This document shows, piece by piece, positions 29,827 to 30,711 of a DNA stretch of 64,000 nucleotides. Within the stretch, counting starts at the first letter, position 1, and every line of letters starts with the position of its first letter. The notes under the pieces are model-generated. The model did no database searches and had not been told where the DNA came from. It saw only the letters and a list, made by a program, of their open reading frames with translations. The stretch is from Chthoniobacteraceae bacterium (GTDB lineage: Bacteria > Verrucomicrobiota > Verrucomicrobiia > Chthoniobacterales > Chthoniobacteraceae): positions 1 to 64,000 of the forward strand of contig CANIWM010000024.1 in assembly GCA_947471505.1 (NCBI GenBank). Direction: 5' to 3'. A program made the position numbers and the translations under genes.

Positions 29827-30098
29827 AGCCACGCCGTCCCCAGGTCCAGCGACCGTACCATTAAGCCTGATCGTACACGATCAAGACGAGCCACCGTACC
29901 GCTGGCCCCAGCCGTACGGCCGCTGGACCGCGCCACCGCGTCCCTCGCCCCAGCCGTGCCACCGCTCGCCCGCGCCACGCGGTGGCTGGACCGAGCGACG
30001 CCGCGCCGCGCCCGCGCCACCCGACCGCTTGCCCTCCGCGTTCATTCCCTAAGCCCAGCGACGCCGTCATTAGCCCCAGCCACGCCGCCGCTGGGCTT
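29827..30098. repeat. Second tandem array with 21-bp period
   Basis: Units begin at 29827, 29848, 29889, 29910, 29931, 29952, 29973, 29994, 30015, 30036, 30057 and 30078; all steps are 21 bp except 29848-29889, which is 41 (two units less one base). The head is AGCCACGCCG or AGCGACGCCG, and a second word GCTGG occurs in several units. On the minus strand it reads as heptapeptides such as ATAWRGR, AVARLGR and GTRWRGP. The period matches the array at 280-531, but the consensus differs. Confidence 0.8.
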
Positions 30099-30161
30099 AG
30101 GAAAAGGGTGCCTTTCTCTGAAAACGCCCCATTTACCCTAAAAACGGCTGTTGGCTCGGGT

Positions 30162-30181
30162 GTGACCGCAGCGTGAGGTAG
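30162..30181. repeat. GTGACCGC motif following the array
   Basis: The word GTGACCGCAGCGTGAGGTAG starts 64 bp after the end of the second array. The first array is followed at 57 bp (567) by GTGACCGCGCTGTGATGTA, and its inverse is at 784-802. This shared downstream position suggests that the array and the motif form one composite element. Confidence 0.5.
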
Positions 30182-30211
30182 CTCGACTGAAGTTTGAGCA
30201 TTCACGAGGCG

Positions 30212-30391
30212 CGACCTTGTAGTGCGGTGGGAAGCGAGGAACGAGCGCCACGCCGCCTTCGCCAGCCGAACGGTGGTGAGAACGACCGAACGCCCGCGAC
30301 CACCGAGAAAACCACACGCGCCCGTTGCACAGCGCGGCGCTCCCAAGGCGGTGTCGCGCTCGTTCCTCGCTCGCCACCGCACTACAAGGTC
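30212..30391. repeat. Inverted pair of REP-type hairpins
   Basis: Arms at 30212-30259 and 30345-30391 are inverted copies with a few mismatches. Each arm reads GTAG then GCGGTG, an apical part that contains GCGAGGAACGAGCGC, and CACCGC closing the stem. The apical word is identical to that in the arms at 1337-1523, while the stems differ. The 85-bp centre has no recognisable feature. Confidence 0.7.
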
Positions 30392-30505
30392 GTCGCTCGC
30401 TTTCTACACCGGGTCCAGTGACACGACGCAACATCGCAGCGCGGCCACACCCGTTGGCTCCGCAGATGACATCATCACACCCTCATCAGGCGCAGGCGCA
30501 AAAAC

Positions 30506-30603
30506 GTAGCTCGACATTCCAATGTCGAGTGAAGGTCCCGTCGAAGCTGGACCTTCTCTCTGATGGAAACGTCCAAACTCGACATTGGAATGTCGAGCTA
30601 CGC
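30506..30603. repeat. Inverted pair of near-perfect palindromes
   Basis: A 25-bp sequence beginning GTAG and containing CTCGACATTCCAATGTCGAG (30506-30530) recurs as an exact inverted copy at 30579-30603. Each copy can itself fold into a 9-bp hairpin with a CC/GG centre. Similar flanks (GCGCAAAAA and its inverse) extend the relation outward. The 5' GTAG plus hairpin again fits REP elements. Confidence 0.75.
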
Positions 30604-30711
30604 CGCGCCTCCGACTTTTTGCGCCCGCATCTCATCACACCCCGTTCGGCATTTTCGATTGCTGAATTTCGATGGTTGATTGTTGAAGTCGCGGAAGACA
30701 CCGTGCGCCCG

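Follow-up and report, generated by a model that had tools for sequence, protein, structure and literature searches.

The stretch of DNA analysed here (64,000 nucleotides, referred to as the window) contains two short tandem arrays with the same 21-bp period and different consensus words. The question raised by the second of them, array 2 at positions 29827-30098, is whether such arrays form a genome-wide family, as the original prediction had proposed, and what the members of such a family have in common. Array 2 is made up of 13 units arranged head-to-tail, a layout called type I below; all are 21 bp long except for one of 20 bp. Its consensus is AGCCACGCCGCCGCTnGCCCn, with partial dyad symmetry. 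The unit starts are found at positions 29827, 29848, 29889, 29910, 29931, 29952, 29973, 29994, 30015, 30036, 30057 and 30078, and the array ends at 30098; the 41 bp from 29848 to 29889 correspond to one 21-bp and one 20-bp unit. The units are identical to the consensus at 14-17 of the 21 positions, with a single outlier at 7/21. Among lags 10-49 the autocorrelation peaks at lag 21, with a score of 0.63 (maximum over 1000 Markov copies, 0.48; p = 0.001), which confirms the twelve starts in register, with one unit one base short, that had been read from the sequence. The array was not called by TRF because the divergence of its units is too high. The p-value of its dyad is 0.011-0.015, and the folding z-scores are -3.1/-4.7. 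Array 1 (positions 294-515) is built of roughly 10.6 repeats of a 21-bp unit, which has the core AGCCGTTTAA and a variable half; the array is also of type I, is without a dyad, and has a lag-21 score of 0.61 against a maximum of 0.42 in Markov copies. These two arrays are the top two periodicity-21 signals in the window, while ten Markov copies of the whole window score no more than 0.41 at every lag from 10 to 70.

Array 2 is located between a gene of the fatty acid hydroxylase / sterol desaturase family (PF04116; 28843-29778, minus strand), the start of which is 49 bp from the array, and a gene for a xylose-isomerase-like TIM barrel protein (PF01261; 30676-31554, plus strand) on the other side of the gap. 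The segment 29774-30696 contains the array and two dispersed hairpin repeats. In the related genome G006 the same two genes are 92-94% identical to those described here, and the gap between them is 66 bp compared with 923 bp; this difference may reflect a loss in G006. The MITE-like hairpin repeat B (30158-30408, plus strand) has 55-nt arms that are 87% complementary, with one further copy in the sample (L044:3558-3815). The palindromic repeat C (30482-30632) has 26-nt perfect arms and the core TCGACATTCCAATGTCGA, with copies at L043, L054, L211, L212 and L213. Hairpin elements (567-802 and 30158-30408) are found within about 65 bp after arrays 1 and 2, and have in common a terminal motif like GTGACCGCnGCGTGAnGTA, which has only four matches across 1.25 Mb. 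A coupling of repeat B to the arrays was considered and rejected, since the third copy of the element, at L044, has no clear array beside it.

The period of the arrays was compared between the present genome and its relatives. The sample of the genome itself is about 1.25 Mb of a 6.07-Mb draft, or about a fifth; the relatives are represented by draft genomes, and the other-phyla sample is 1.0 Mb, mainly of Alphaproteobacteria. Gene calls for the TRF census were hexamer-based and made for the present analysis, and TRF was run independently of the autocorrelation scan. The period is 21, 42 or 63 in 13 of the 14 non-coding TRF arrays of the genome itself, in all four from the genus and in both from the family, in neither of two from the rest of the order, in one of two at other named Verrucomicrobia loci, and in none of four from other phyla. 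When the non-coding arrays are pooled, multiples of 21 account for 19/20 in the genome, genus and family, as against 0/6 in the order and other-phyla samples. The autocorrelation scan agrees, with periods of 21, 42 or 63 in 15 of 22 arrays of the genome itself (scanned at free lag over the first 0.85 Mb), 6 of 8 in the genus, 3 of 5 in the family, 1 of 9 in the order and 0 of 14 in other phyla. In the free-lag scan, all arrays of the genome with other periods are found within genes. A period of 69 bp (23 amino acids) occurs in three coding arrays (L069:1047-1583, L031:3691-4254 and L055:296-731), treated here as a separate class of protein repeats. Extrapolation from 22 arrays per 1.25 Mb suggests an estimate of about 100 arrays per genome. 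The bias towards a 21-bp period is thus genome-wide and, within these samples, restricted to the present lineage. The pair of arrays would have been a coincidence if such periods were absent elsewhere in the genome and its relatives, and they were found across the genome, genus and family samples. The verrucomicrobial scope that had been suggested holds, but the class is seen within the genus and the family to which the genome belongs and is not clearly seen in the remaining order.

The arrays have the period in common and not the sequence. The all-against-all comparison of the 22 arrays of the genome gave one related pair, L039 and L051, which are inverted relative to each other and 87% identical; the remaining arrays are unique, range in GC content from 0.43 to 0.82 and contain from 8 to 20 units. 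A consensus common to many loci, as in the transposed satellite family of the Leptospira type, was not found beyond this sole pair, and the comparison revealed no motif common to the arrays of the kind expected for phased protein binding. A 10.5-bp half-repeat was not found within the 21-bp unit. The two scans and this comparison together support a family of 21-bp arrays that extends across the genome and whose consensus words are unrelated.

Two layouts can be distinguished. Type I arrays, arrays 1 and 2 among them, have units that are as similar to the adjacent unit as to the next but one. In the eight type II arrays (L034, L037, L039, L049, L051, L224, L256 and L282) the identity to the adjacent unit is 0.13-0.40, near chance in several, while to the next but one it is 0.61-0.93. 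All eight have 42-bp dyad symmetry in a permutation test (p ≤ 0.018). A 42-bp repeat with such a dyad corresponds to a 21-bp module alternating with its own reverse complement. In agreement with this, neighbouring modules of L034 have an identity of 0.55 when inverted and 0.11 when read directly, and those of L256 0.58 and 0.19; the two readings are equal in L051. Because the control module lengths in this comparison do not keep register with the 42-bp period, the dyad permutation test is the stronger evidence for alternation. Type II arrays therefore appear to be one 21-bp module set down in either orientation. Over both layouts, a dyad at p < 0.05 (nominal, per array) is found in 18 of 34 arrays, with a combined p of 5e-18. 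Covariation within the dyads is weak, with 6/36 at p < 0.05 and p = 0.064 for array 2, and the choice of phase for it is poor in type II.

The arrays are found in intergenic DNA and in frame within genes; four of the genome itself and one in G003 are in frame. Since 21 is a multiple of three, arrays would be able to survive within genes too. Intergenic placement tracks the available intergenic space, with no significant bias of orientation. Placement at promoters only can be rejected, as the sites are 8 divergent, 7 codirectional and 0 convergent, near the length-weighted background of 33/58/9%. In the alanyl-tRNA synthetase (AlaRS) of the present genome (G000), a variable loop contains an in-frame type II array, and the same loop in G003 has a different array, in which ASSPTGG is repeated. 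The loop is short and without arrays in seven other members of the genus. By this comparison the two AlaRS arrays are independent of each other. An in-frame array is also found in the L216 gene, for a PVC-type heme-binding CxxCH protein, and is missing from three relatives.

The same alaS gene (L034:14549-18199) has, at amino acids 520-738, an in-frame match to a REP-associated tyrosine transposase (NF047646, PF01797). The NF047646 match has an E-value of 2e-20, yet is below the family cut-off, and the host gene is the only full alaS found; an essential gene thus carries a transposase domain. A Y1 transposase match is also located within alaS of L244 (G004) and of L245 (G008). In the genus genomes, several Y1 transposase matches are located within open frames of more than 1100 codons, for example at G000:C42:5744-6019, G008:C86:3986-4213 and G008:C17:25892-26125; these suggest that RAYTs have repeatedly been inserted in frame into other genes. 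The alaS loop of G014 (L322) contains an insert that, judged by eye, is like an alkyltransferase-like (MGMT/ATL) domain.

Comparison with G006 gives some indication of how arrays arise and are lost. As at the array 2 site, the arrays at L220 and L216 are missing in G006, and the empty sites retain 66-259 bp of unalignable DNA. The L039 array and its G006 counterpart L279 have the same consensus, and the array is longer in the present genome; at this one locus, copy number differs between species as it does in minisatellites. G006 also has another copy of the L039-type gene, and the 42-bp array that comes after it, L282, is of quite different sequence; this suggests that arrays beside this gene family have turned over or been gained independently. 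L040 and its G006 counterpart L285 have equal length and register; their units differ and their stems match, with a double change from A-U to C-G in the stem. Within arrays, the identity to the consensus is 0.69 in the middle compared with 0.60 in the outer fifths. The missing array 2 in G006 and the differing alaS arrays of two species indicate that the arrays are recent or fast-changing.

Two readings take the arrays to be expressed, as protein or as RNA. Minus-strand coding of heptapeptides had been proposed for array 2, and 21 bp does equal seven codons. However, all three minus frames of array 2 contain stops (1, 1 and 4) with no codon-position signature, and variability with a period of three reaches p < 0.05 in only 1 of 30 intergenic arrays. 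A few arrays, such as those in alaS and the heme-binding protein gene, do lie in frame, and the idea is already contradicted for the intergenic ones; that the arrays as a class encode heptapeptide-repeat proteins is scarcely credible. Strings of small RNA hairpins (mRNA stabilisers, attenuators or small-RNA sponges) would account for the folding, which has z < -2 against shuffles in 24 of 35 arrays and in 5% of random stretches, although repetition inflates z. In many arrays each of the two strands folds better than its shuffles, and the two are often equally structured, as DNA dyads would give. Array 1, L031 and L226 (plus strand) show no structure by this measure, and the neighbouring genes are unrelated in function. 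Known RNA families were not found at the arrays by Rfam, the matches in the flanks being miRNA models on long hairpins, under the cut-offs. We consider an RNA-level role quite improbable.

At the DNA level, a dimeric DNA-binding or nucleoid protein of weak sequence specificity might use the arrays as phased landing sites, with selection maintaining the two-turn spacing and the dyads. The significant dyads and the changed units of L040 and L285 in an unchanged register and stem agree with this, as does the register kept over 10-17 copies though units are only 45-60% identical. The lack of a shared motif argues against one sequence-specific protein. In addition, arrays are missing at orthologous sites despite flanks that are 93-95% identical, occur within essential coding sequence, are no more biased in orientation than the available intergenic space, and are without the 10.5-bp half-period. 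Such binding sites are possible, although the balance is against them. The dyads could also belong to mobile palindromic elements, either like those of Rickettsia or REP/BIME moved by a RAYT transposase, and Y1/RAYT genes are found in every member of the genus, one in frame in the alaS that bears an array. Insertion between as well as within genes, and the presence of a single array family at both L039 and L051, oriented oppositely, are in line with mobility; the uniqueness of all other arrays and the unalignable DNA retained at empty sites make it unlikely. Ordinary minisatellites formed by replication slippage, with a common period that is accidental or a by-product of codon length, would have the decay at the edges and the copy-number differences that are usual for slippage, and bacterial satellites prefer repeat lengths divisible by three (Subirana & Messeguer 2019, PMC6749651). 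Non-coding arrays need no multiple of three, yet their periods are multiples of 21 in all but one case in the genome, genus and family and in none of the six from the order and other phyla. Slippage is already largely contradicted by these counts and is highly improbable.

The reading that we prefer, with about an even chance of being right, is that these are minisatellite-like arrays produced by lineage-specific duplication with a fixed 21-bp step and tolerated where insertion is harmless. The fixed step and the lineage restriction are observed within the samples, and the property passed on within the family is module length (two helix turns), not sequence. We infer a lineage-specific activity that would copy or duplicate DNA in 21-bp steps, with a fold-back (hairpin) intermediate that might sometimes yield inverted modules. 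Local duplication would homogenise the centre of an array while the edges decay through substitution, and arrays would persist at harmless sites, the neighbouring gene needing no role. Against this account, no enzyme is picked out: Y1 transposases are found in all ten genomes of the genus and reverse transcriptase in three, and the latter was rejected as the array maker because it is missing from G007 and G009, which bear arrays. Simple duplication leaves the dyads unexplained, the equal length and register of the L040 and G006 arrays with different units could mean selection on spacing, and about a fifth of the draft genome is covered by the sample. More tentatively, a putative dedicated enzyme may write 21-bp modules in either orientation at many sites, its two-turn footprint setting the step and the local template setting the sequence.

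The arrays show no alternation of repeat and spacer, which rejects a CRISPR array. Iterons of the plasmid type are direct repeats of about 20-22 bp, or two helical turns, with one consensus and located beside a rep gene. The arrays are likewise two-turn direct repeats, but have neither a common consensus nor an adjacent replication initiator gene. REPs are palindromic intergenic sequences conserved genome-wide. The arrays resemble REP/BIME in having palindromic repeats in intergenic DNA and RAYT-type genes in the genus, and differ in that their sequence is not conserved. Rickettsia palindromic elements are 105-146-bp copies of shared sequences that are tolerated in frame (PMC2229807); the arrays also occur between genes and in frame within conserved genes, apparently tolerated, but are tandem 21-bp modules without shared sequence. 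The intergenic heptamer TAACTGA repeats of Beggiatoaceae (PMC4679880) are similarly many scattered direct-repeat arrays of one lineage with an unproven role; in those repeats a 7-base word is fixed, whereas the present arrays keep a fixed period with varying words. The bacterial satellites and minisatellites (PMC6749651) are the likewise short tandem arrays of mostly unique sequence in intergenic and coding DNA, and type I arrays share with minisatellites head-to-tail repeats beyond chance. The present arrays differ from them in that one period dominates and that modules, in type II, also alternate in orientation. Neither Verrucomicrobia nor a 21-bp class is mentioned in the main text of that study, and no earlier account of 21-bp arrays, or of tandem repeats in Verrucomicrobia, was found in the open-access literature searched.

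Repeat families are normally recognised by shared sequence. Here the period is the shared property, and a family that shares the period alone is missed by sequence-based repeat finders. If a dedicated enzyme does write the modules, this would be a new repeat-forming system, defined by period alone; and if an enzyme sets the period, the arrays would record its step size in readable form and provide a simple screen for the responsible gene. Pairs of species with and without an array at one site, alaS included, allow direct tests of how bacterial minisatellites are born and decay.
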